DNA from: Terriglobia bacterium
GTDB taxonomy: Bacteria; Acidobacteriota; Terriglobia; Bryobacterales; Bryobacteraceae
Direction: 5' to 3'
Assembly (NCBI GenBank): GCA_020073445.1
Contig: JAIQFE010000006.1
Span: 1-64,000 of the forward strand
Length of the DNA stretch: 64,000 nucleotides
Made by a program: the position numbers and the translations under genes. Shown one piece after another: positions 1-10,875 of this stretch (its first letter is position 1; every line of letters begins with the position of its first letter). The notes under the pieces were generated by a model. That model searched no databases. It had not been told where the DNA came from and worked only from the letters and a program-made list of their open reading frames with translations.

Positions 1-182
1 CCTTCACTGCCGCGGCCTTCAACTTGTGGCGCATTCCAAAGCTCCGGGCCGCGGTGTGTTGAGCGGCGCTTCCGGGGCCCACTGAGAGGCCCGGTTGCCG
101 ACTGCGGGGGCGCCTCGCGACGCCTCCTTCTGCCGGTAACAGTGCTCCCTACGAAGTGCCAGTGGTGTTCCCGGACGCTATT
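1..182. other. Window edge, no gene recognised
   Basis: I see no convincing coding frame, RNA gene or repeat here. Read on the minus strand it should hold the rest of the patatin gene whose first 58 codons lie at 183-359, but the translation loses all resemblance to patatins at the stop codon. The sequence therefore looks like unrelated DNA joined to a broken gene. It may belong to an element that continues left of the window. Confidence 0.5.
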
Positions 183-359
183 TCAGCAAGCTCCTAGGCC
201 CGCGGCTAAACCGAGTGCAATGATGGCGCCTGTGCTTGTACCGCAGAATAAGTCGAATTGGTCGGAGCAACGTGCATTGAAATGATGCTCCAGTTCTTCA
301 AGATACGCAGCTGCCGTGAGGCCGAGATAGCCGCCGCCATCGATGCTCAGAATACGCAT
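183..359 (-). pseudogene. Truncated patatin-like phospholipase (CapV-type) N-terminus
   Basis: A 58-codon minus-strand frame runs from an ATG at 357-359 to a TGA at 183-185. It begins MRILSIDGGG and contains GTSTGAIIALG. These are the patatin oxyanion glycine loop (DGGG near residue 7) and the GxSxG nucleophile elbow (Ser about residue 42), spaced as in the intact phospholipase at 1984-2988. The frame stops straight after the nucleophile helix, so the catalytic Asp (DGG/DGA) and the rest of the fold are missing, whereas an intact member has over 300 residues. It points away from the CBASS pair. I read it as the remnant of a second cyclic-nucleotide-type effector. An expressed mini-protein is unlikely. 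Confidence 0.8.
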
Positions 360-1008
360 GTGTGAAATAGGAAAGACGTAGAGAAGTTCCTAAAATACCA
401 GACAGCAGGATTGTCTGCCGCTCACCCGCAGAGATCAAGGAGGAAGGCGGGGCGACTTATGCAGGGGCATCAGTTTAAGTTCCCAAACTTGACGCCATCT
501 TTCCCAGAATTGTGTCATGCAACCGGGCGGTTCCATGACAGGTAATTTCCTTCCGCGACTGCGCGGTTGCGGTTCGAGTGCTTGCTGGAGCAAGTCCTAG
601 GCCTGCTGGAGTCGAAGAAGTCGGCCGGAGCGATTCCGGTTCCCGGTCCACTGTCGACCGCTACGCTGAACCCGTCGGAAATCTGCATACAATTCGACAC
701 CGAACGGACATTAGCACTCGCGCAAGTCAAAGAAACAAAACGGGCCCAGGCGCACACGAAACCCTCAAATTCGCGTTTAGGAGATCCGTTTCAAAGGGTT
801 GGGTGGGCCGCTCCCGATGTCGAGTACAGAGCCCCCAAATCCGGCCCGAACTGGGAACGCATCAGGTGGAGACGTTTCCGAACCACTTGGTGAGCTCCTC
901 AAGTGAGGCCGACTTCTCGGGAGTAACTTCCCACAACGCCATTTATGCCCAAGTTCCGAATCGCCGACAATCCGCAAGAAGCGTTAGTCTTCACGACCGC
1001 GCGTCACA
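360..1008. other. Non-coding region upstream of CBASS genes
   Basis: 649 bases separate the broken patatin from the CD-NTase gene. Short open frames exist on both strands but none has a recognisable product or a good ribosome site. The right half carries copy 1 of the diverged direct repeat. Any promoter for the CBASS operon should be here, but I cannot point to a clear -35/-10 pair. Confidence 0.4.
631..937. repeat. Imperfect direct repeat flanking CBASS, copy 1
   Basis: Copy 1 shares with 3391-3637 an ordered series of blocks. The first is CGATTCCSGTT followed by GACCGCTAC. Then come GGAAATC, TACAAT, TCGCACTCGCG-type sequence and the exact run AAGTCAAAGAAAC (724-736). Further blocks are ACACRAAACCC, CAATTCG-type sequence, and a tail CGACTTC-CGGGAGT (917-932). 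Gaps of different length separate the blocks, so the copies are old and diverged. The pair brackets the CD-NTase and phospholipase genes. Confidence 0.6.
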
Positions 1009-1977
1009 ATGGATCGCGTGCCGTACCCTGCGTATCCAAGAGTATCTAGGTACAATTCGTACGAGACCATGCATTCACTTGAGACGCTGCTCGCAAACCG
1101 CGTGAGCTCGCTTCAGCGTTCACAGGAAGACAACGCAGAAGTGAACACGCACCTACGCGATATTGCTGTTTGGCTCAGGCGCGCGCCATTTAGTACCGGC
1201 ATGGCCGTATACACGCAAGGTTCGGTTCGGCTGGGCACCTCAATTTCGCCAGTCGCACGATCGGGATTCGATGCAGATCTTGTGTGCCAACTGCCGCGTT
1301 ACGCGTGGGAATCTTGTCCATCGGCGATGTTTGAGATGGTGGGAGGCCACCTACTGCAACTTCCTGGATTCCAAGGCGCAGTGAAGAGGAAGCGACGATG
1401 CTGGACCCTGGTGTACAGCCCCCGGTTTCACGTTGACGTAACTCCAGCGATCATTCACGAGAGATCGCCAGGGGAGGAGGTCTGGGTGTTTGACGGGCCT
1501 TCCCAAGACTGGCGGATCTCTAATCCAGTCGCTTATGCTTCTTGGTTTCAGGCGAAACAAAACTCTGCAATTTGCAGCTCGGCTGCGCCTCTCGTCGCCG
1601 CAGTTCAGCTTCTTAAGAGAAGGCGTGACTTGCTCTTCGACAGTCCGGATGCGCCTAACTCAATTGTGCTTACTACATTGGCTGCTTCCCTCTACTCGGG
1701 GGAGCAAACAATAGTTGCGACCTTGAGCAAGGTGATCCGCGGGATGTTAGCCGTTGCGGATGCCCTCGGCAGCCGCATGGCAGTTGCAAACCCAGTGAAT
1801 CCGTCAGAAGTGTTCTCTGAAAACTGGACTGGCAATGCCGCGGCTGCCAAGCTATTCTCTCGATACCTCAAAGATCTGCAAACCCGGCTTGCGCGCACAG
1901 AGATCACCAAGCATCAACACCGTGCTGCATGGCAATTGGATGAGCTTTTTGGGGCCAGGTGCGGCTCACTCAACTAA
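1009..1977 (+). CDS. CBASS cyclic oligonucleotide synthase (CD-NTase)
   Basis: This is a 322-residue CD-NTase. Enzymes of this family sense phage infection and make a cyclic di- or trinucleotide second messenger from NTPs. The polymerase-beta-type active site is intact: GSVRLGT at residues 71-77, FDADL with metal-binding Asp88 and Asp90, and the third acidic residue in FHVDVTP (Asp143). The C-terminal half is helical, as in the family. The stop is 6 bases before the phospholipase gene, so the two are surely co-transcribed. The start is uncertain: ATG 1009 has no clear ribosome site, and ATG 1069, 20 codons inside, is equally plausible. I see no Cap2/Cap3 ubiquitin-like genes or HORMA/TRIP13 genes, so the system fits type I CBASS. 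The nucleotide product cannot be told from the sequence. Confidence 0.9.
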   Translation: MDRVPYPAYPRVSRYNSYETMHSLETLLANRVSSLQRSQEDNAEVNTHLRDIAVWLRRAPFSTGMAVYTQGSVRLGTSISPVARSGFDADLVCQLPRYAWESCPSAMFEMVGGHLLQLPGFQGAVKRKRRCWTLVYSPRFHVDVTPAIIHERSPGEEVWVFDGPSQDWRISNPVAYASWFQAKQNSAICSSAAPLVAAVQLLKRRRDLLFDSPDAPNSIVLTTLAASLYSGEQTIVATLSKVIRGMLAVADALGSRMAVANPVNPSEVFSENWTGNAAAAKLFSRYLKDLQTRLARTEITKHQHRAAWQLDELFGARCGSLN

Positions 1978-1983
1978 CGAGCG

Positions 1984-2988
1984 ATGCCCAAGTTCAAGGT
2001 TCTTTGCCTAGATGGGGGTGGCATCAAGGGCACCTTCACTGCGGCGGTCCTCACAGGCCTGGAAGAGATGCTCGGGTCGCCGATCGTTCCATACTTTGAT
2101 CTTATTGTTGGAACCTCAACAGGAGGCATCATCGCCCTTGCTCTCGGGCTTGGACTTCGAGCTGAAGAAATACTGCACTTCTATGAGAAACACGGCCCCA
2201 CAATCTTTCCGAGTACGGGTGTTCACAGGCGCGCAGGACTATTCCTAAAAGGTCTCGTTCGACCTAAGCATTCCAGCGAGGTTCTCCGGGAGAGATTGGT
2301 CGAGGTGTTTCGGGACCGGAGACTTGGTGAGGCGGTCACGCGACTGGCGATCCCGTGCTTCGATTGCAATGCTGGGCGTATTCAAATGTTCAAAACCGCT
2401 CATCATGAGAGGTTCGTTCACGATTACAAAGTTGCTGTCGTCGATGTGGCGTTAGCAACCTCTGCTGCGCCAACATACTTTTCGGCGTTCAACACCGTCG
2501 ATGGGCAGAGCTTTCTTGATGGTGGCGTCTGGGCGAACTGTCCCGTCATGGTGGGGCTGCTTGAGGCGATGTATGTGCTCGATATTTCTTCGCCGGATAT
2601 ACATGTTCTAAGCGTCGGTACGACTGACGACCCATTTGATGTTTCTAAAATCAAACGAATCGGCGGACTACTTACCTGGGGAACTACTGCCGTGAGCTTG
2701 TTAATGCGGGCTCAAACCGACGCTGCAATATCTCAGGCTCAGCTCGTACTCGGCGACAGACTGCTGCGGGTCGACTCAGTCACTCGGCCAGGAAGGTTCA
2801 CCTTGGACGACTCCCGCCGAATTTCGGATCTCGTGGGCCTTGGCAAGTTTACAGCTAAGGACCGATTCGAAGTCGTGGCTGAGCGTTTCCTCGGGAGTAC
2901 CGTTACTCCCTTCCAACCGAACCATATACTTAGTCCCGCAAACCAAGTTCCCGAGGCGCTCAGAAATTACAAGTTCATGGGTCACTGA
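1984..2988 (+). CDS. capV: CBASS effector, patatin-like phospholipase CapV
   Basis: This 334-residue patatin is the expected effector of the preceding CD-NTase. When the cyclic nucleotide binds, CapV proteins degrade membrane phospholipids and kill the infected cell. The whole catalytic set is visible: the oxyanion loop DGGGIKG (residues 10-16), the nucleophile elbow GTSTGG (Ser45), and the catalytic Asp179 in FLDGGVWANCP. Length and spacing are normal for CapV, and there is no signal peptide or membrane segment. It starts 6 bases after the synthase stop, which indicates translational coupling. A similar but truncated patatin lies at 183-359. The cyclic-nucleotide specificity is unknown. Confidence 0.9.
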   Translation: MPKFKVLCLDGGGIKGTFTAAVLTGLEEMLGSPIVPYFDLIVGTSTGGIIALALGLGLRAEEILHFYEKHGPTIFPSTGVHRRAGLFLKGLVRPKHSSEVLRERLVEVFRDRRLGEAVTRLAIPCFDCNAGRIQMFKTAHHERFVHDYKVAVVDVALATSAAPTYFSAFNTVDGQSFLDGGVWANCPVMVGLLEAMYVLDISSPDIHVLSVGTTDDPFDVSKIKRIGGLLTWGTTAVSLLMRAQTDAAISQAQLVLGDRLLRVDSVTRPGRFTLDDSRRISDLVGLGKFTAKDRFEVVAERFLGSTVTPFQPNHILSPANQVPEALRNYKFMGH

Positions 2989-3756
2989 GATGGGACTCTT
3001 GGCCTCGTGAAGCAGTCGATTCGCCCCCAACCTGTCCGCCGGTGGATCACACGCTATCCCGAATTTGGCGAACCAGCAGTCGGGTTATGGGAAGTTGCAA
3101 CTCAGTCGGGTCGATAGATCGCAGGAAACGTCGTTCGTGGAACCCAAGCTCCAGACCATCAGGTGGCGGAATACTTCGTAATCAGCACCGCGAATTGGTG
3201 ATCTGAATCACATCCATTCTGGAGGGTCAGTGGGGACACTCGCCGGGAGTCAGTGGTGGAACACGATGTCATCTCGATGTCATCCGGTGCACTCACGTGC
3301 TGGTACCGGCTAGCAGCAGACGAATACGACGGAAACAGAATCAATCATTTGAGCCAGGGCGACATAGGGCGTCACGGCATACAACGCTTTCGATTCCCGT
3401 TAGCGGCCACAGCCGACCGCTACCGTGACCGCTACCAGATTGGAAATCCGCGTACAATCCGGTACTCGACGGACAGTCGCACTCGCGTAAGTCAAAGAAA
3501 CGACACGTGGCGGACCCGGGCGAACACAAAACCCCCCAATTCGGGTCCAGGAGGCTCGTTGGCCAAATCCACTCCGCGCACCGGACAAGGTTTCCAAGTC
3601 GTCGCTCAGGTGACGGCGACTTCACGGGAGTGATCGCCGAATTCCGTAAGGAGTTCTGTACGAATAGCCGACCATACAGACATTCCTCCAAGAGTGACGC
3701 ATTGCTCGCCAGTCGAATTATGACCGGGTACCGGTTCGGCGGCGAAACCGAATAGA
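2989..3756. other. Non-coding region downstream of CBASS
   Basis: 768 bases without a convincing gene. The possible small frames (for example 3253-3633 plus and 3341-3691 minus) have no recognisable motifs or ribosome sites and cross the diverged repeat copy 2. I see no clear rho-independent terminator directly after the phospholipase gene. Confidence 0.4.
3391..3637. repeat. Imperfect direct repeat flanking CBASS, copy 2
   Basis: Second copy of the diverged repeat at 631-937, in the same orientation. The strongest shared stretch is AAGTCAAAGAAAC (3489-3501) preceded by CACTCGCG. Shared blocks to either side are GACCGCTAC, GGAAATC, TACAAT, ACACAAAACCC, CAATTCGG and CGACTTCACGGGAGT. It starts about 400 bases after the phospholipase stop. 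Confidence 0.6.
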
Positions 3757-4716
3757 ATGGGACGAACTATGGAACGCTTTTCACTCTTGGGAGTCGCACT
3801 TCTCTGTTCCATCACTGTCAGCGCAGCGGACTGCAACCGCGCCTGCCTGAAAGATACGATGACGAAATATCTCGCCGCGCTTGTCGCCCATGATCCATCC
3901 AAAGCGCCGCTCGCGCCCAACCTCCGCTTCACGGAGGATTCCAAAGACCTCAAGGCCGGAGAAGGCCTCTGGAAATTGGCCACCAAACTCGGCGACTACC
4001 GTCAAGACTTCATCGATGTGAAGCAACAAGTCGTGCTCTCGCACGTCATCGTTGAAGAGAGCGGTAAGCCGGCGTTCTTCACAGCACGTCTCAAGATCTC
4101 AAAAGGCAAAATCACTGAGGCCGAAACCCTGGTCACCCATCCCACCGAACGAATGGCACCGCGTGCCGAGTTCATCACCCGTCCCGGCATGGAGCTCCCG
4201 CCCCCCACCGGCAAACAAAACAAGCGGGAAGACCTGATTCGCATCGCGGACTACTACCCCCGCGGCCTCACCGTCGGCGGCTTTGACAAAGTGGACGCAC
4301 CGTTCGCCCCCAACGCCTACCGCATCGAAAACGGCTCCGTCATGGCCGGAGAAGGCTGCGGACGCGGTACACCCAGCGGGCGGCCCACCACCCCTGCGCC
4401 GGGCGGCCAGCCTGCCGTCAGCCCCACCGCGCCGCAGGATATCGCCGGCTGCCGCAACATCAAAACCCAGCGCATCATCGAACACCCCGCCCTCACCAAA
4501 AGCCTCGCTGCCGTGGATGAAGAGCAAGGAACCGTCGTCTTCTGGATGAACTTCGGGGACACCGGCACCTACGGCCCCGGCAATGCCCTGGTCACCTTCG
4601 AAGCCTTCAAGGTCTTCGACAATCAAGTGCAGGTCGTACAGGCCTTCTTAAAGGTAATGCCCAAGGAAACCCAACGTGGCTGGGGAACCACGCGCAAGGG
4701 TGCGGAGAAGTACTAG
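3757..4716 (+). CDS. Secreted protein of unknown function
   Basis: About 319 residues. A hydrophobic signal peptide (SLLGVALLCSITVSAAD) is followed by a mature protein. The first part (residues about 25-150) reads like an NTF2/SnoaL-type helical-plus-sheet domain (CLKDTMTKYLAALVAHDPSK, then LRFTEDSKDLKAGEGLWK). A Pro/Gly/Thr-rich linker near residue 205-225 leads to a second, similar half. The NTF2-like reading is a guess from the pattern 'helix, AALVAHDP, LAPNLRFTEDS'. ATG 3769, preceded by GGGACG, may be the true start. The gene stands alone, and its codon use looks like the chromosome rather than the CBASS pair. Confidence 0.7.
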   Translation: MGRTMERFSLLGVALLCSITVSAADCNRACLKDTMTKYLAALVAHDPSKAPLAPNLRFTEDSKDLKAGEGLWKLATKLGDYRQDFIDVKQQVVLSHVIVEESGKPAFFTARLKISKGKITEAETLVTHPTERMAPRAEFITRPGMELPPPTGKQNKREDLIRIADYYPRGLTVGGFDKVDAPFAPNAYRIENGSVMAGEGCGRGTPSGRPTTPAPGGQPAVSPTAPQDIAGCRNIKTQRIIEHPALTKSLAAVDEEQGTVVFWMNFGDTGTYGPGNALVTFEAFKVFDNQVQVVQAFLKVMPKETQRGWGTTRKGAEKY

Positions 4717-5058
4717 CAGAATCGGGCTACCATTGCGGGGCGTTGCAAACGCCCCTATATCAATGCGCTGGAACACACAGCACCGGCCTTGGAACTCACG
4801 TCGACGTGCGGGGATACAACAAGATTTCACCTCCACCCCGCAAGGTCGGGGGCACGTAGCTTTCCGTGGAGAGTCGCCGACGTAGAACGATCAGCCTCGG
4901 GGCATCCCCACGGCCGAATCATGGGCAGCTCGGAAGAAGGCCTCGCCCAAGCTGAGCGACGCCAGCATTCTACGTACTGCCGGCCATCCGGACAAAGCCA
5001 TCACAAATTCCTGGAACCACTGAGAGGCGGTTTCCTGTGCTCAGGAGTGTTTGAGAGC
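4717..5058. other. Intergenic, nothing recognised
   Basis: 342 bases between convergent genes. I see no RNA gene, repeat array or plausible coding frame. A possible plus-strand frame from 4789 lacks a ribosome site and any familiar motif. Confidence 0.4.
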
Positions 5059-6000
5059 TTATCGTTCGCGGCAAAGTTGACTGATGGCTGCCAACTTTGC
5101 CGACGCCAAATCAATCGCAACCTGCCGATGAATATCAGGCACCGAATTACTCGCCCCACGCCAACGATCTATTGCTAGACGGAAGTAATGCTGAGCTTCG
5201 TCGTATCGTTCTTTCCTGTAACTTCCACCTTCGGTGAGTAACTCTGCGAAGGCAAGCGTTAACGCTGCTAGGTAGCGGTCGTCCGGGTCGAACTCAATCT
5301 CCGCCAGCCCAAGCCGTTCACGATAAATCGGCAGGTTGTCGTCGTACCAGTCCGCGTCGCGGTTCTCAAAGATGTACCCACCGACTTGATCCTCGAATTC
5401 CTTTCTCCAAAACCGTGACCGGCTTCGGTATTGACGAACTTGAATCCGGATGACATTTGCCATGCGTCGAACGGGCTCCGGCAGCTTTGGTTGCTTCAGA
5501 CGTTCTGCGTCGCGAGCTATTTGAGCATCCAATTCGGCGAATCGTTGATCTCGAGTTTCCGCAACACCAGTCTTTTGGGCTGAGCTACGCGAGACGGAAG
5601 GGCGAGGTTCTTCGTCCTCCCAGGACCGTCGCTTTCGCCCGCGATGACCCAGGAGCAAATGTTCGCGGAGCCTGGAGCAAGAGGATTCCAGGGCCAGCTG
5701 CGCAACACGGACACAAGCGTGCCAATTTGCTCCGCGTTCCCTACCAGAATCAAGTATGTAGGCTTCCTCCTCAGCCGTGACCGCTATCGTCGCACGCCAG
5801 GAGAAATCGGTTTTCCGAAGGTCCGTACCAACGCTGTGGCAGCGGGTGTCCCCCGTTAGGCGAATCTGTCGATGTTCCCCGGCGATCAGTTCTACTCTCT
5901 TCCGTCCTCTGCGTAGGATGCGCCCGTTCTGAACGCGGCGAACGGCCAAGTCACTCATCATCCGCCGTGCGACAGCGCTATAAATGGCTCGCTTCTCCAT
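5059..6000 (-). CDS. Hypothetical protein, probable island cargo
   Basis: 313 residues with no recognised family. The N-terminal third is basic (RRVQNGRILRRGRKR). The centre is a charged helical stretch (RFAELDAQIARDAERLKQPK). The C-terminal part (about 225-313) has a TPR-like helical look (YLAALTLAFAELLTEGG, then EAQHYFRLAIDRWRG). There is no signal peptide or membrane segment. An AGGCGG sequence sits upstream of ATG 6000. It is divergent from the HTH/excisionase/integrase cassette, so it may be cargo of that element. Its last codons contain one copy of an exact 18-bp repeat also found inside the excisionase gene. Confidence 0.55.
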   Translation of the reverse strand: MEKRAIYSAVARRMMSDLAVRRVQNGRILRRGRKRVELIAGEHRQIRLTGDTRCHSVGTDLRKTDFSWRATIAVTAEEEAYILDSGRERGANWHACVRVAQLALESSCSRLREHLLLGHRGRKRRSWEDEEPRPSVSRSSAQKTGVAETRDQRFAELDAQIARDAERLKQPKLPEPVRRMANVIRIQVRQYRSRSRFWRKEFEDQVGGYIFENRDADWYDDNLPIYRERLGLAEIEFDPDDRYLAALTLAFAELLTEGGSYRKERYDEAQHYFRLAIDRWRGASNSVPDIHRQVAIDLASAKLAAISQLCRER

Positions 6001-6052
6001 GTTGCCGCCTAAGCGTGCACGCCCACACCGACACCTAATATACAGAACAATT

Positions 6053-6082
6053 TTGACAAATCTTGTATCGAAGCGCTACTAC
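6053..6082 (+). promoter_or_regulatory. Candidate promoter of the HTH-excisionase-integrase cassette
   Basis: A perfect TTGACA at 6053-6058 is followed after 18 bases by TACTAC, a weak -10 match. This lies just before the HTH gene start at 6093. The leader would be very short. Confidence 0.3.
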
Positions 6083-6092
6083 AGTTGTTGTC

Positions 6093-6299
6093 ATGCGCAA
6101 CGACCTTCGGAAACAGCGATTGGAACTTCGCCTTTCTCAGAGTGCTCTAGCCAGATTGTCCAAGGTTCCACGTATTCGAATCTGCCTGCACGAATTGGGT
6201 GATCGACCTCTGAGCAACGTCGAACTCGGCCCGGTCCGGCTCGCTCTTCAAGCCGAAGTTGTGAGAATCAGGCGAGTTGCAGCCTCCTTGGCTGACTAA
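6093..6299 (+). CDS. Small XRE-type helix-turn-helix protein
   Basis: 68 residues from ATG 6093. The central stretch, LRLSQSALARLSKVPRIRI, fits the HTH_3/XRE pattern (helix LSQSALARLSKVP, then the recognition helix), followed by the usual GDRPLSNVELGPVRLALQAE tail. It is as short as many phage and island repressors. It lies one base before the excisionase-like gene, in the same direction, so it probably regulates or belongs to the integration cassette. The DNA target is unknown. Confidence 0.6.
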   Translation: MRNDLRKQRLELRLSQSALARLSKVPRIRICLHELGDRPLSNVELGPVRLALQAEVVRIRRVAASLAD

Positions 6300-6300
6300 C

Positions 6301-6552
6301 ATGGCAACCTCCGTTAAGCTTCAGCCTATTCGTCTTTCTGCTGAGCATGGTGAATACCTCACTCGCAGCGAAGCAGCCGATCGTTTGCGAGTCTCGAAGG
6401 CGCATCTTTCAAACCTCGTTCGCGGCAAAGTTGCGGGTATGCCTGGCCTACGATGTTGCCGCGTCGGCCGAAGAATGATCTTCAGGCTCTCATGGATAGA
6501 CGAATTCATTGAGGCAACTGCCAGCGGTGGGGTCAATGATGATAACATTTGA
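6301..6552 (+). CDS. Excisionase-family DNA-binding protein (HTH_17)
   Basis: 83 residues. YLTRSEAADRLRVSKAHLSN is the winged-HTH start typical of the MerR-like excisionase family, followed by GRRMIFRLSWIDEFIE, the usual C-terminal strand and helix. Small proteins of this kind act as recombination directionality factors or simple regulators beside tyrosine recombinases. The gene sits between the HTH gene and the integrase. The second copy of the exact 18-bp repeat (6416-6433) falls within its VRGKVAG codons. Confidence 0.75.
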   Translation: MATSVKLQPIRLSAEHGEYLTRSEAADRLRVSKAHLSNLVRGKVAGMPGLRCCRVGRRMIFRLSWIDEFIEATASGGVNDDNI

Positions 6553-6592
6553 CCCATGTCAGAATTCAACGCTCTACGCCCCAGAAGGAGAA

Positions 6593-7717
6593 ATGGTGCG
6601 CAAGAGATTTCGTTATCAGAATCCAACGCCGAAGATCATCTCGGTCGGAGGCGTCAACAAGTGGTACGTACAATATCGGAACGCCGAAGGCAAGAAAAGG
6701 AGCAAAACGCTAGGTCTGGAATCCAAAATGACCGCGAGTCAGTTACAAGCGGCTGTAAGCGCGATACTGGCTCCGATCAACGCTGGACTGACTCAGACCA
6801 GAACACGGTCATACACAATCGAAAACTATGTCGAAACGGTCTTCATTCCAGTCCAGAGGCGGGGCTGGAAGGGATCAAGTGCCATCACAGCGATCCAACA
6901 GATCCGGTTTCACCTTACCTCCGAACTTGGCAACAGGCCTCTGGAGAAGATTCAAAGGGAGGAGCTTCAGCTCTTGCTGGACCGGAAGGCGGAGTGCTTG
7001 TCGCAAAGCGTTGTCGGGCATCTACGATGGTTCCTCAACGCGATTTTCAAGCTGGCCGTTTCAGAGGGCATCGTACCGTTCAATCCGGCGGCGGAGCTAA
7101 TTGTACCGAAAAAGTGCAGGCCAGGGCGAGAATCACAGGTGCTCGCAAGCGAGCAAGTGGAGGCGTACTTCTCAGCCCTGGAACTCCGAGAGCTTGTTGC
7201 GGCGCGATTGGCCCTCATCGAAGGTATGCGGCCAGGAGAATTTCTCGCTAGGAAGTGGCCTGATATGCACCCAGAAGTTATTTGCATTCCGACAAGGGTG
7301 TACCGCGGGGAATTCGACACCCCTAAGAACGGGAAGGCAAGAGAAAGCGCTATGTCCGATGGGACGTGGCGTGCGCTTCTTGAATTGAGAAAGACTGCCT
7401 TAGATCCGAACGGATTTGTATTTGCATCCGAGGCTGGCGATACGCCGATTTCGCGGGACAACCTGTGGAGGCGGTATATGAAGCCGGCATTGGACAAGGT
7501 AGGTTTGGGGTGGGCGACCTTTCAAGTGTTGCGTAGAACGAACGCCAGCCTTTCCCATAAGGCCGGCGTGGATCCGAAGGTGTCTGCAGACCAACGGGGC
7601 CACGGACTTGGAGTAAGTATGGAGCACTATACGCAGTCTGATTCAAAACAGAAAAGGGAAGCTGTTCGGAAGCTCGAATCCGCGCTCATTCCCAAACCGA
7701 GGAAACGCTCAGCGTGA
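6593..7717 (+). CDS. Tyrosine recombinase / phage-type integrase
   Basis: 374 residues from ATG 6593, preceded by AGGAG. The N-terminal arm and SAM-like core-binding domain (about 75-180) lead into the catalytic domain. Arg of box I lies in EGMRPGEF, the beta-hairpin Lys in TPKNGKARES, box II is FQVLRRTNAS, then comes RGHGLGV and the nucleophile Tyr in MEHYTQSD. The first box II residue, normally His, is Gln, and LGH is RGH. Two ATGs at 6536 and 6539 with GGTGGGG upstream could give a longer N-terminus. I prefer MVRKRF as the start because it resembles related integrases. The 3' end faces the 3' end of a tRNA-Gly gene 69 bases away, as expected for an island integrase. Confidence 0.9.
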   Translation: MVRKRFRYQNPTPKIISVGGVNKWYVQYRNAEGKKRSKTLGLESKMTASQLQAAVSAILAPINAGLTQTRTRSYTIENYVETVFIPVQRRGWKGSSAITAIQQIRFHLTSELGNRPLEKIQREELQLLLDRKAECLSQSVVGHLRWFLNAIFKLAVSEGIVPFNPAAELIVPKKCRPGRESQVLASEQVEAYFSALELRELVAARLALIEGMRPGEFLARKWPDMHPEVICIPTRVYRGEFDTPKNGKARESAMSDGTWRALLELRKTALDPNGFVFASEAGDTPISRDNLWRRYMKPALDKVGLGWATFQVLRRTNASLSHKAGVDPKVSADQRGHGLGVSMEHYTQSDSKQKREAVRKLESALIPKPRKRSA

Positions 7718-7785
7718 AAGCCTGAAGCCTTAAAGGAGTATGGGAGTATTGTGAAGAACTCAGTGGGTCCCAAGTTATTGAAAAA

Positions 7786-7860
<75 letters not shown>

Positions 7861-7984
7861 CCTTTGGCAGACAGCCTTACGATTCAGGCCCCCAACGCGA
7901 CAGAGCCTGAAAACATCATTCTCGCACGACCGGAGTATATCACGCAGGTTAACGGCTGGATTCTTCGCCCGCATCAGGGACTCA

Positions 7985-8011
7985 ATACCGAACATTCACG
8001 TTCGGTATAGT
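7985..8011 (+). promoter_or_regulatory. Palindromic operator overlapping a -10 box
   Basis: A perfect 9-bp inverted repeat, ATACCGAAC/GTTCGGTAT, with a 6-base spacer (7985-8008) overlaps the -10-like TATAGT (8006-8011), about 50 bases before the zinc-ribbon gene. The half-sites CGAAC/GTTCG are those of Gram-positive-type LexA boxes, but the spacing is 6 rather than 4. It is probably a repressor operator; the repressor is unknown. Confidence 0.5.
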
Positions 8012-8058
8012 AGGGTAGCGTTTACGTCTGGTTTTTCATCTCGGAGATTTTAGTTCTT

Positions 8059-8544
8059 GTGACCAATCGATGTCCGTTCTGTACGAACTACGCCTATGCT
8101 GCGAGCGTCGGGGACGCTTACCAGCTGGATTGCCGTTATTGTGAAATTCAAATTGAGATTACGAAGCGGGCTTACTCGGCCCGGTGCCCCGATCCCGTCG
8201 GAGTGCTAGATTATATCCGGGAAAAACTCAAGGTGAGCACCAGGCCGCGAGTGGATATTGCGGACATGAAGCGCCGGCAATTGCCGCCCGAGCCGAGACA
8301 AGAGGAAGAGATGACCGCAAATGATAATGACGCATTGACGACAGCCGCCAAGGCGGTCGGAACCACGCTTGGAAAGCTTGCGGTAAAGACCGGCATGGTC
8401 ACGCCGCCCGCCGGACCCGTCAAGACGCGCAAAAAGGTCGCTGCCAAGAAAAAGGCGCCGGCCGCCAAGGCAGCACTCGGCGTTAAGAGGAAGGCTGCTC
8501 CTAAGAAATCCGTCAGAAAGCCCGCCTCCAAGAAGAAGGCGTAA
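8059..8544 (+). CDS. Zinc-ribbon protein with histone H1-like tail
   Basis: 161 residues from GTG 8059 (MTNRCPFCTNY). An N-terminal four-cysteine ribbon (CPFC near residue 5 and CRYC near residue 26) probably binds zinc. After an acidic linker (QEEEMTANDNDALTT), the last 60 residues are Lys/Ala/Pro-rich with AAKKKAPAAKAA-type repeats, as in histone H1-like and HU-tail proteins that bind DNA without sequence preference. The possible operator at 7985-8008 suggests regulation. A nucleoid or nucleic-acid-binding role is inferred from composition only. Confidence 0.7.
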   Translation: MTNRCPFCTNYAYAASVGDAYQLDCRYCEIQIEITKRAYSARCPDPVGVLDYIREKLKVSTRPRVDIADMKRRQLPPEPRQEEEMTANDNDALTTAAKAVGTTLGKLAVKTGMVTPPAGPVKTRKKVAAKKKAPAAKAALGVKRKAAPKKSVRKPASKKKA

Positions 8545-8556
8545 ACTGAAACGCGT

Positions 8557-8763
8557 TCAAGTCGACCGCGCGCGGTCGCGTGGCAGCGACGGATCAGAGG
8601 CGCGCGTCAGGTCATTCGGCTCCGGACTTGGTTGTTCTTGGATCCATTGGAGCCACGCGTCGGTCTTTTGGGTTGCCTCTTTCGCCGTAAGCCCGTAACG
8701 CTCTTGCAGCTGATTCAATAAGGTTTTACGCCATTCCTTCGAGATCCGCTTCCGGCGCATACG
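8557..8763 (-). CDS. Small CsbD-like hypothetical protein
   Basis: 68 residues from ATG 8763 (MRRKRISKEWRKTLL). The stretch LLNQLQERYGLTAKEATQKTDAWL resembles the C-terminal helix pair of CsbD-type stress proteins, in which 'QERYGI..EEAE..VD' is usual. The N-terminal CsbD motif is absent, so this is only a partial likeness. It is basic at the start and acidic at the end. Convergent with the zinc-ribbon gene, 12 bases apart. Confidence 0.45.
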   Translation of the reverse strand, partial: RMRRKRISKEWRKTLLNQLQERYGLTAKEATQKTDAWLQWIQEQPSPEPNDLTRASDPSLPRDRARST

Positions 8764-9024
8764 TCTCCTTGTCTTCCCTTCCGCCCGCCTGTGGCGCGTG
8801 ACCTGCATCGCCGACGCGCCGGGATCCCCTGTTTCGAACTCGCCTGAAACGTTGGCACTTCGCGATGCTCTCTTCGACGTGACAGCGCGAGGTCAATAAT
8901 AGTGCAAGCGCGATACCAGCTGTAACTCATTGATTCCGCGGGAGCACGCTGCGCCGGGAGTCCGATCCGCAACAACGCCGCCGGGTGAAGGATGCAAAAC
9001 TGAACACCCTTGCCGGTGAAGACG

Positions 9025-10875
9025 TTACGGGGCGGGGGACGCGGCATGCTTGACTTGCGCGACCGCCAAGCGCCGGAGCATCGAACGCTTCTTGAGGTGG
9101 TGAGCTTGCATGGCATGGAGGACGTGATCCAGAAAGCGGACGGCCTCCACGATGTGCTCGCCCTTGTTCAGCATGACGCATTCGGCGCCGACACCCATGG
9201 CTGCATCGGTGACCTCCGCACGCGACGGGATTCCCGTCTTGGCCAGCGTCTCGAGCACCTGTGTGGCCCAGATCACCGGAATGTGTGCGGCTTCGCTCAG
9301 CCACAGGATCTCTTCCTGGACTTCGGCCAGCCGCTCAAAGCCGATCTCAACCGCCAGATCGCCCCGCGCCACCATAATGCCGACGGGATGATGGCGCAGG
9401 GCAGCCAGCAGAATGAGCGGGAGCTGATCGAATCCCTGTCTGCTTTCGATCTTGAGGATGACTCCCAATCCACTCTTGCCGCGAGCCTCCAGTTCGTGCC
9501 TGAGCTCCAGAACATCTTCGGGCCGGTGGGCGAAGGACAGGCCGACGATATCGGCATGCTCGGCGATAAAATCGAGGTCGCGCCGGTCTTTCGCTGTTAT
9601 CGCGCCCATACCGAGATCGGTTTTCGGAAGATTGATGCCCTTGGCTGAGCCGAGCTTGGCTACTGAGCCGGGGTGCAGGATTTCGACCACTATATGACCC
9701 GGATGGACCTCCCGAATGCGGCCTTCGATTTTCCCGTCGTCGAAGAAGATGGGCTGTCCCGTTTGCGCGGTGGAGAAGACTTCGGGAAGCGTGCATGAGA
9801 TGTGCGGGAGATCGCGATGCTTCGCCAACAGGGCGTTTTCGTCCCTGGTCAGGATGAGCAGATCGCCGGCGTGAAGGCGAAGAGGCTCCTCGACAAATGG
9901 CAGCTCGCCGACGTGCCCAGTGGCGATTTTAGCGCCGTCGCGGAGCAGCGACAATGCTGCGCGGCTAAGGATGTAGGCGCCCTGTTCGCAGGTGCAGACG
10001 CAGGCGTGATCGCTCTTTTCGATCACAGCGAGTTCCCGCTTCTTCTTCTCACTATTCTTGACTCGAATGATGTCGCCGGGGCACGCGGCGCGCACCAGAG
10101 TCTCGGGCACCGGGAGCAGGGCGTCGACCGAGGGCAGGGAACCAGCATCGTAGTGCCTGGCCACCAGCGCGATACGCGCGGGAGCGATCACATCGCCGCG
10201 TGTATCCTTGCCGACCCGCCACCGGACCACGTGATGTCCGCGGTGGATAGGACCAGTTCGCAGCTTGGGACCGGCCAGATCCATCACCACTCGGCAGTGT
10301 TTGCCCGATTCCTGGTTGGCCCGGTGCATGTGAGCGATCATGCGCTCCCACTCGATCTCCGAATCGTGCGCGCAATTTACGCGCATAACGTCCATGCCCG
10401 CCTCGACCAGGTTTTTGACAAGTTCGTAGGACTGGGCGGCTTCCGATGGCATGGTGACCATGATTCGAACCGCGCGACCTACGGGAGCCGGACCCAGAAG
10501 ATGGTCCGCTTGCTCCGTCAGGGCAGCCGGCCCGCTGGTGAAGTCGACCGAGGGCGACTGCCGCGGTGAATCGAAACACGCTCCCGCGAGCGATTCCAGA
10601 ATGGCGATGACGGCCTCCAGTCCGGCGAGCACGCTCGATTCGCTGCGTCCCAGAGACGAGAGCCCGAGAGCGGCCAGCCGGGATTGCAGATCGCGCAAAT
10701 CTTGTTTGCGCAAAGCCAGATAGTGGAGGAAATTCTCCACGCTGCGGCGAGACTGCGGGCAGGCCTCGGCGATGGACGCTCCGAATTCCTGTTCCATGGC
10801 GAGGCAAGACTCTCGAAGCTCTTTGAGCTCGGCGAGCAGGCTACTGATGTGCGTTGAGCTCGTACGAACCGGCAT
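9025..10875 (-). CDS. Atypical pyruvate kinase with N-terminal extension
   Basis: 616 residues against about 470 in standard enzymes. Pyruvate kinase makes ATP and pyruvate from phosphoenolpyruvate in the last step of glycolysis. The catalytic domain keeps DLAGPKLRTG, DDGKIEGRI, INLPKTDLGMGAIT, the KIE motif (VILKIESRQGFD), MVARGDLAVEIG and ATQVLETLAKTGIPSRAEVTDAAMG. There are about 130 extra N-terminal residues that look helical and have no known domain. The chain ends soon after the barrel, so the C-terminal allosteric domain is missing. There is also an expanded segment in the B domain region. It is divergent from the Nramp-like gene. A housekeeping enzyme is probably encoded elsewhere, so this may be a specialised paralogue. 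Confidence 0.8.
   Translation of the reverse strand: MPVRTSSTHISSLLAELKELRESCLAMEQEFGASIAEACPQSRRSVENFLHYLALRKQDLRDLQSRLAALGLSSLGRSESSVLAGLEAVIAILESLAGACFDSPRQSPSVDFTSGPAALTEQADHLLGPAPVGRAVRIMVTMPSEAAQSYELVKNLVEAGMDVMRVNCAHDSEIEWERMIAHMHRANQESGKHCRVVMDLAGPKLRTGPIHRGHHVVRWRVGKDTRGDVIAPARIALVARHYDAGSLPSVDALLPVPETLVRAACPGDIIRVKNSEKKKRELAVIEKSDHACVCTCEQGAYILSRAALSLLRDGAKIATGHVGELPFVEEPLRLHAGDLLILTRDENALLAKHRDLPHISCTLPEVFSTAQTGQPIFFDDGKIEGRIREVHPGHIVVEILHPGSVAKLGSAKGINLPKTDLGMGAITAKDRRDLDFIAEHADIVGLSFAHRPEDVLELRHELEARGKSGLGVILKIESRQGFDQLPLILLAALRHHPVGIMVARGDLAVEIGFERLAEVQEEILWLSEAAHIPVIWATQVLETLAKTGIPSRAEVTDAAMGVGAECVMLNKGEHIVEAVRFLDHVLHAMQAHHLKKRSMLRRLAVAQVKHAASPAP

Follow-up and report, generated by a model that had tools for sequence, protein, structure and literature searches.

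Near the left end of the stretch of DNA analysed here (the window), which covers the leading 64 kb of a contig of 197,947 bases in genome G000 (6.58 Mb, 95.8% complete, 102 contigs), two genes stand head to tail: a compact CD-NTase and a patatin-like phospholipase of the CapV type. The host is a soil acidobacterium; G005, a genome of the same genus, has a CD-NTase identical to that of the Bryobacterales MAG palsa_187. An initial annotation had taken the adjoining reading frames at 1009-1977 and 1984-2988, both on the forward strand and separated by 6 bases, for a minimal CBASS operon, and a CD-NTase gene directly beside an effector gene is indeed the arrangement of type I CBASS. The frame proposed for the first gene is there, but its start codon was probably placed too early: the true start is probably at 1069, because the orthologue described below (genome G618) begins at the corresponding codon. 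The features of the region are collected in Table 1.

Table 1. Features of the CBASS pair and its surroundings, in window coordinates.
Feature	Position	Strand	Remarks
Left copy of the direct repeat flanking the pair	631..783	+	74% to 3391-3553
Compact CD-NTase	1069..1977	+	302 aa; 322 aa if started at 1009
CD-NTase GS	1219-1224	+	motif position
CD-NTase DxD Asp codons	1270-1272, 1276-1278	+	motif position
CD-NTase third Asp	1435-1437	+	motif position
CD-NTase lid Asn152 / Tyr156	1522-1524 / 1534-1536	+	alignment with VcCdnG, numbering from PMC12804361
Intergenic gap	1978..1983	+	6 bp
CBASS patatin-like phospholipase (CapV type)	1984..2988	+	334 aa
Patatin oxyanion motif DGGGIKG	2011-2031	+	motif positions
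Patatin nucleophile Ser45 in GTSTG	2110-2124	+	motif positions
Patatin Asp179 in DGG	2518-2520	+	motif positions
Right copy of the repeat	3391..3553	+	with left arm ~3247-3390 resembles a recombination site
Excisionase-like HTH_17 protein	6277..6552	+	Pfam HTH_17 2.8e-7; TIGR01764 3.6e-5, below cut-off
Tyrosine recombinase (integrase)	6509..7717	+	Pfam Phage_integrase 6.2e-10
tRNA-Gly(ccc)	7786-7860	-	beside integrase

The region looks like a genomic island, since to the right of the pair a tyrosine recombinase lies beside a tRNA-Gly(ccc) gene. The only copy of the tRNA-Gly attachment repeat in the window is the tRNA itself, and as the contig begins at window position 1, the island may lack its left end. 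Third-position GC is 0.56-0.58 in the pair and 0.60 in the integrase, 0.71-0.76 in four window genes of chromosomal type and 0.73 in the open reading frame at 3757-4716 (+, 319 aa); neither this frame nor that at 5059-6000 (-, 313 aa) has a Pfam, PADLOC or NCBIfam match at E 0.001. Rfam finds only tRNA in the window, and promoter and terminator scans of 600-3400 stay at chance level. The repeat around the pair is a dispersed element with the make-up of a recombination site, namely a left arm, a core of about TTCGATTCCCGTTAGCG and a right arm. Further copies in G000 lie at C68:6277-6565, C91:172712-172839 and C79:42342-42500; both arms are found in the copies at window 3391 and on C68, the right arm only at window 631 and on C91, and the left arm and core only on C79. 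The pair is thus flanked by two right-arm copies, 2.76 kb apart, and the copies may mark a mobile cassette. Judged by eye, the left-arm copy on C79 has as neighbours (locus L016, 4860-9780) frames resembling a Fic protein, an Argonaute of the PIWI type and a protein whose N-terminus looks TIR-like, in the manner of the short pAgo type, together with a tyrosine recombinase-like frame (10039-10803); the two-armed copy on C68 lies beside serine and tyrosine recombinase-like frames (locus L014, 8119-11070).

Both proteins match CBASS families. The first matches Pfam SMODS (3.5e-11) and DncV-like_NTFase (5.6e-8), both above cut-off, and the PADLOC oligonucleotide cyclase (1e-64). Two NCBIfam cyclase models also match it but do not reach their cut-offs (cGAS, 61.2 of 150 bits; CBASS_cyclase_b, 30.2 of 200), as might be expected of a protein that is short and divergent. 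The second matches Pfam patatin (1e-27), the PADLOC phospholipase effector (9.9e-104) and the curated NCBIfam CBASS_lipase (NF041079; 273.5 bits against a cut-off of 200), and it carries the GXSXG, DGG and GGG motifs of the CapV phospholipases; it matches the PDB patatin 9wn1 (7.7e-45), and its solved relatives are 9wn1/9kh6/9kh7 and CapV. The complete catalytic set announced for this protein is in place (DGGG, GTSTG, DGG), with the oxyanion motif, the nucleophile Ser45 and Asp179 in the roles usual for the family. The initial annotation had named what would speak against it, a first protein among tRNA or kanamycin nucleotidyltransferases and a patatin among lipases from outside CBASS neighbourhoods. 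In fact, the first groups with CD-NTases by PADLOC, trees, Foldseek and profile searches, and the second with patatins of CBASS operons by NCBIfam CBASS_lipase and trees.

The cyclase active site is likewise complete, as had been proposed: the GS, DxD and D motifs are all present, and G51 S52, D68, D70, D123, K183 and S198 are invariant across a 39-protein alignment headed by the window protein. Lysine 183 and serine 198 presumably hold the donor triphosphate. An AlphaFold2 model of the 302-residue protein, built on this alignment, reaches pLDDT 90.8 and pTM 0.90, residues 298-302 being the sole segment under pLDDT 50. Foldseek places the S. marcescens CdnG-E2 complex on top (TM 0.79-0.81 by query length), followed by BdCdnG and then CdnB and CdnD; the top entries are 8yjy, 8hsb and 7ljn, and 9woo is absent among the 50 matches listed. 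With the 39-row profile, 9woo, 8hsb and 7ljn lead (8.6e-96 to 5.9e-50) and DncV entries follow at 2.9e-11 and weaker, while the window sequence alone also puts VcCdnG, SmCdnG and BdCdnG first. The solved relatives of the cyclase are VcCdnG (9woo, so named in PMC12804361), SmCdnG and B. diazoefficiens CdnG. By sequence and by modelled fold its nearest clade is CdnG, an assignment made by similarity.

The lid points the same way. VcCdnG has G56 S57, D73 D75 D135 and the lid pair N194/Y198 (PMC12804361), with which N152/Y156 of the window protein align. The same paper states that the N/Y lid predominates in clade G, that clade G with this lid makes 3'2'-cGAMP, and that the ligand of CapV is 3'3'-cGAMP. 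From the N/Y lid and the clade G report we predict that the window cyclase makes a cGAMP, most likely 3'2'-cGAMP; the isomer used by the pair is uncertain because the CapV ligand and the clade G product differ. In the 39-protein alignment the compact cyclase also lacks some 20-30 residues ahead of the PLQ helix, along with a near-invariant lysine before this helix (residue 172 is Ala in the window protein and likewise in G618). This loss is not simply part of the loss of the E2, since L029, an AGS-C relative without E2, retains the stretch.

What sets the pair apart is what it appears to do without. No ubiquitin-like partner was found beside it, in keeping with the initial annotation: homologues of E2, Cap2 and Cap3 were not found (Cap2 and Cap3 by single-sequence searches of the window region), and a general Pfam scan finds no HORMA or TRIP13 domain in the pair or the next four frames. 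The cyclase stops where the tail of its relatives would start, and the two compact proteins end in ...GSLN / ...GSIN, with no terminal Gly or Ala. The operon has neither the E2-like gene nor the C-terminal conjugation tail, ending near Gly/Ala, that define type II-short CBASS; in E2-bearing relatives of this arrangement, a CD-NTase tail followed by an E2-like gene takes up the place of the 6-bp gap in the window. Searching window 1-9500 and L165 6001-13000 by tblastn with E2s and tails gave nothing convincing (best E2 at E 0.001, in two pieces within window 3294-3588, a stretch that overlaps the repeat and no gene; best tail at E 0.011), nor did scanning the six frames of window 1-9500 and of the whole of L165 with the E2 profile (best E 0.59). 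A frameshift or remnant as the explanation for the missing tail and E2 was rejected because these tblastn and six-frame scans gave no convincing match.

To place this architecture, we compared 108 distinct CD-NTases drawn from a set of 119 loci. This set comprises the window itself, 10 relative loci, 6 of 20 listed plasmid matches (118 records matched), 80 genome contig loci (the best 80 of 464 relatives), 5 viral contigs and 17 loci of the order. Nine loci with an identical protein were dropped, as were two without a match at E 1e-8 (L013, L023). The classing profiles were built from four members per E2 class and two AGS-C domains, a match counted anywhere in the locus (flanks of 1.5 to 7 kb), and the tail patterns are our own, picked after inspecting the protein ends. 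In this sample, its genome contig loci being the best 80 of 464, a short E2 accompanies 54 of the 108 CD-NTases, 50 of these with a C-terminal [FYWN][YFHWA]G tail; a long E2 accompanies 29, of which 27 end in a PW tail; and 19 carry an AGS-C domain, L163 having a short E2 match in addition. The short-E2 loci lacking the G tail are L079 (...HRDFGDK), L139 (...HRDFGDHNA), L163 and L099, where the E2 match is 83 aa long and the C-terminal end odd. At least one of an E2-like gene or an AGS-C domain is found with 100 of the 108 (again with the best 80 of 464 contig loci), and the 8 with neither are the window protein, its G618 counterpart (L148), L124, L128, L028, L158, L160 and the fragment L164; the flanks of L158, L160 and L164 were examined over only ~1.5 kb or less. 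Apart from L164, the other six measure 358 aa or more, and at 302 aa the two compact proteins are the shortest complete CD-NTases of those compared, the best 80 of 464 included.

Loci L011 (G060), L012 (G005, same genus) and the plasmid locus L027 all have the order cyclase (369-389 aa), small frame (144-155 aa), patatin. Among such small frames, PADLOC recognises all three that were scanned (L027, L102, L074) as E2, and likewise all four that were scanned of a second class, 224-253 aa long (L071, L119, L110, L089), whereas Pfam returns only a sub-threshold SEC-C match over six frames of both classes. The two E2 classes seem paired with the two tail types, the long E2 with the PW tail and the short E2 with the G tail. 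A Cohnella locus (L066, 3887-7776) holds two different related CD-NTases, with a G tail and a KPW tail, both E2 classes and a patatin. On the Gloeothece plasmid NC_011732 (L172), the gene after a CBASS-type phospholipase that shares 46% identity with the window's encodes a nucleotide kinase domain and is not annotated as a CD-NTase.

The compact pair is not unique to the window. CD-NTase matches at E 0.001 or better occur in 21 of 257 genomes of the order, the window's own included, and in a single one, G618 (9.5 Mb in 2 contigs, from a different genus of the family), does the match (64%) run to the very end of the protein. There, a CD-NTase of 302 aa (195/302 identical, 65%) precedes a patatin of 334 aa (264/334 identical, 79%), with gene order, lengths and ends as in the window and an intergenic gap of 2 bp. 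The likeness in DNA is confined to the two genes (1106-2990 against 8611-10491) and the flanks compared differ, so the pair seems to be mobile as a unit. Differences by codon position number 76, 68 and 157 in the cyclase (third position, 157/301) and 56, 33 and 180 in the patatin (180/269); lying mostly in third positions, they indicate purifying selection on both genes. By NG86/YN00, dN is 0.264/0.269 and dS 1.65/1.52 for the cyclase, and dN 0.136/0.139 and dS 2.02/1.65 for the patatin, ratios that are rough because dS is near saturation. Decay was rejected on the evidence of the G618 pair and this pattern of differences. A class-wide scan of 399 genomes returned the same two genomes only at E 1e-40 or better. 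No further member turned up in genome contigs scanned with the single window CD-NTase (in the scan with A1, G618 is not named among the best 80 of 464) or in viral contigs scanned with both compact proteins; phage records gave a single, distant CD-NTase (28.8%), and among the 257 genomes of the order no further patatin exceeds 53%.

The trees speak to where such a pair might come from. In a first CD-NTase tree of 94 rows, the window protein belongs to a supported set of 34 (100/98), where each of its 33 companions has E2, and its end branch is the longest, 2.28 against a median of 0.35. A second tree of 71 rows added G618 and 6 rows and left out 30 that were long or near-identical (26 of them without short E2); in it the window protein and that of G618 group together (100/100), and their common stem has a length of 2.05. 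Unrooted, this stem joins between a 29-row clade in which all have E2 (98/94) and a clade that is mixed, with E2 in its first branches; the forks at this point are weak (87/68, 81/21). Placing the compact cyclases as sister to L074 and L155 was rejected (p-AU 0.002), and placing them in a clade with L012, L074, L152, L153 and L155 is borderline (p-AU 0.065). In the patatin tree (46 rows; 18 of a first tree dropped, 6 added), the two compact patatins have as neighbours (96/83) those of L074, L149 and L155, each encoded in an E2 operon. Since L155 is a partial protein and L074 nearly the same as L149, these sisters amount to two sources, G511 and G573, both of the same family and with patatins 52-53% identical to the window's. 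One common nearest relative (L074/L155) for both genes holds for the patatin and is rejected for the cyclase, which may thus have a different history from its partner. The sister relation of the compact patatin to E2-operon patatins suggests a reduction from type II-short to type I, a point that the cyclase tree does not settle.

We think it likely, at a probability of about 0.7, that the locus encodes a two-gene type I CBASS, a clade G-like cyclase with a patatin, proposed to be activated by a phage ligand and reduced from a type II-short system. As read from sequence, the genes are intact, adjacent and selected, and the cyclase site with its N/Y lid and the patatin motif set are complete. 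A phage-derived ligand would touch the cyclase core directly and switch it on, with no tail, E2, AGS-C or other visible partner involved. The activated enzyme would join ATP and GTP into cyclic GMP-AMP (3'2'-cGAMP most likely, 3'3'-cGAMP next), which would activate the patatin, probably by assembly, and the active patatin would degrade membrane phospholipids until the infected cell dies. The pair would derive from a cyclase - E2 - patatin operon that lost its E2 gene as well as the cyclase tail on which the E2 would act, fast change in the cyclase accompanying the reduction. Against this reading count the very long stem of the compact cyclases, the rejected sister relation to the L074/L155 cyclases, the lost stretch and lysine before the PLQ helix, the mismatch between CapV ligand and clade G product, and the occurrence of the pair in only two of the genomes scanned. 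More specifically, that a clade G-like lineage has dispensed with its conjugation apparatus in full, losing both tail and E2, and became a self-sufficient sensor with a phospholipase, is a proposal that we would put at a little under even odds.

The compact cyclase could instead be an old type I lineage that never had tail or E2 and later recruited its patatin from an E2 operon, a tentative alternative that we hold somewhat less probable. It concerns history only and is compatible with the mechanism just described. Its own long stem, which carries the midpoint root, and the rejected sister relation of the cyclase to L074/L155 would suit it; the unrooted stem joins between the 29-row all-E2 clade and the clade with E2 first branches, which argues against it within the limits of the weak forks (87/68, 81/21) and of the 30 left-out rows, 26 without short E2, as do the sister relation of the patatin to E2-operon patatins and the E2-like gene or AGS-C domain found with 100 of the 108 sampled CD-NTases (the best 80 of 464 contig loci among them).

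Conjugation machinery acting in trans, by which a distant enzyme would conjugate or regulate the short cyclase, would be invisible from the operon, yet the genomes make it improbable. The short E2 profile finds nothing genome-wide in the two compact genomes (0/2, G000 and G618) and matches all three E2-operon control genomes (3/3). With the long E2 profile, which also rings in 6 of 14 control genomes and gives matches of good length in G222 and G300, the sole match in each of the compact genomes covers 25-26 of 241 profile positions, falls on the same profile stretch as a short match in G089 and in G000 has a stop codon inside; absence of a gene from G000 is not quite proven, as the assembly is 95.8% complete in 102 contigs. 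The ends ...GSLN and ...GSIN, with no terminal Gly or Ala, also speak against it. Still less credible is a decaying relic, in which a deletion joined a broken cyclase to the patatin. The protein is the shortest complete CD-NTase of those compared (best 80 of 464 included), has the longest end branch and lies close to the contig end beside an integrase, but its ends and lengths are shared by G618, differences concentrate in third positions, all catalytic residues are kept and the predicted fold is confident and complete, so that the G618 pair largely refutes this reading. The chance that the first protein is an unrelated nucleotidyltransferase of tRNA or antibiotic type, with the lipase as a fortuitous neighbour, is negligible given the Pfam, PADLOC, NCBIfam, Foldseek and profile matches and the conservation of the pair in G618.

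The proposed two-gene CBASS resembles several known systems without coinciding with any. With type II-short CBASS (the S. marcescens CdnG-E2 of 8yjy/8hsb and the operons of G005, G060, G511 and G573) it shares cyclase family and active site, and with those four operons also the patatin effector and the phylum, but it lacks the E2 gene and the C-terminal tail, and in its cyclase the stretch that leads to the PLQ helix is shorter. VcCdnG-Cap5 (9WOO) has the nearest clade G cyclase by sequence, with GS/DxD/D and the N/Y lid in common, but its effector is the SAVED-HNH nuclease Cap5 instead of a phospholipase and its cyclase has 396 aa against 302. In DncV-CapV the effector is also a patatin phospholipase of the CBASS family, whereas the window cyclase resembles clade G more closely than DncV, and Cap2/Cap3 were not found nearby by single-sequence searches. 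An AGS-C CD-NTase of another Bryobacterales genome (L084/L150) also stands beside a patatin with no E2 found, but that cyclase has a C-terminal AGS-C domain that the window cyclase lacks.

The link between tail and conjugation is already known from PMC10097602 and PMC11153139. According to PMC10097602, cyclases whose operons include Cap2 and Cap3 conserve the C-terminal Gly/Ala, and those of minimal operons do not; deleting it abolished cGAMP production upon T4 infection, and P1 was inhibited without Cap2. PMC11153139 describes conserved tails in type II and proposes cyclase-cyclase conjugation for type II-short. In an untargeted search of the open-licence literature we met with no paper on a compact, clade G-like cyclase that lacks the tail and is paired with a patatin.

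Thus, the system is an ordinary, known kind of defence in an unusually reduced, compact form, its function being inferred from what is known of the family. The part worth testing is the compact cyclase and its mode of activation: a natural, selected relative without tail or E2 makes it possible to test directly what a catalytic core achieves by itself, and the pairing of a clade G-like cyclase with a phospholipase raises the question of which cGAMP isomer the patatin reads. If the conjugation apparatus was indeed shed, we would have here a natural tail-less cyclase whose core alone must sense phage, and it would run counter to the view that conjugation or a C-terminal sensor domain is indispensable to cyclases of this family.
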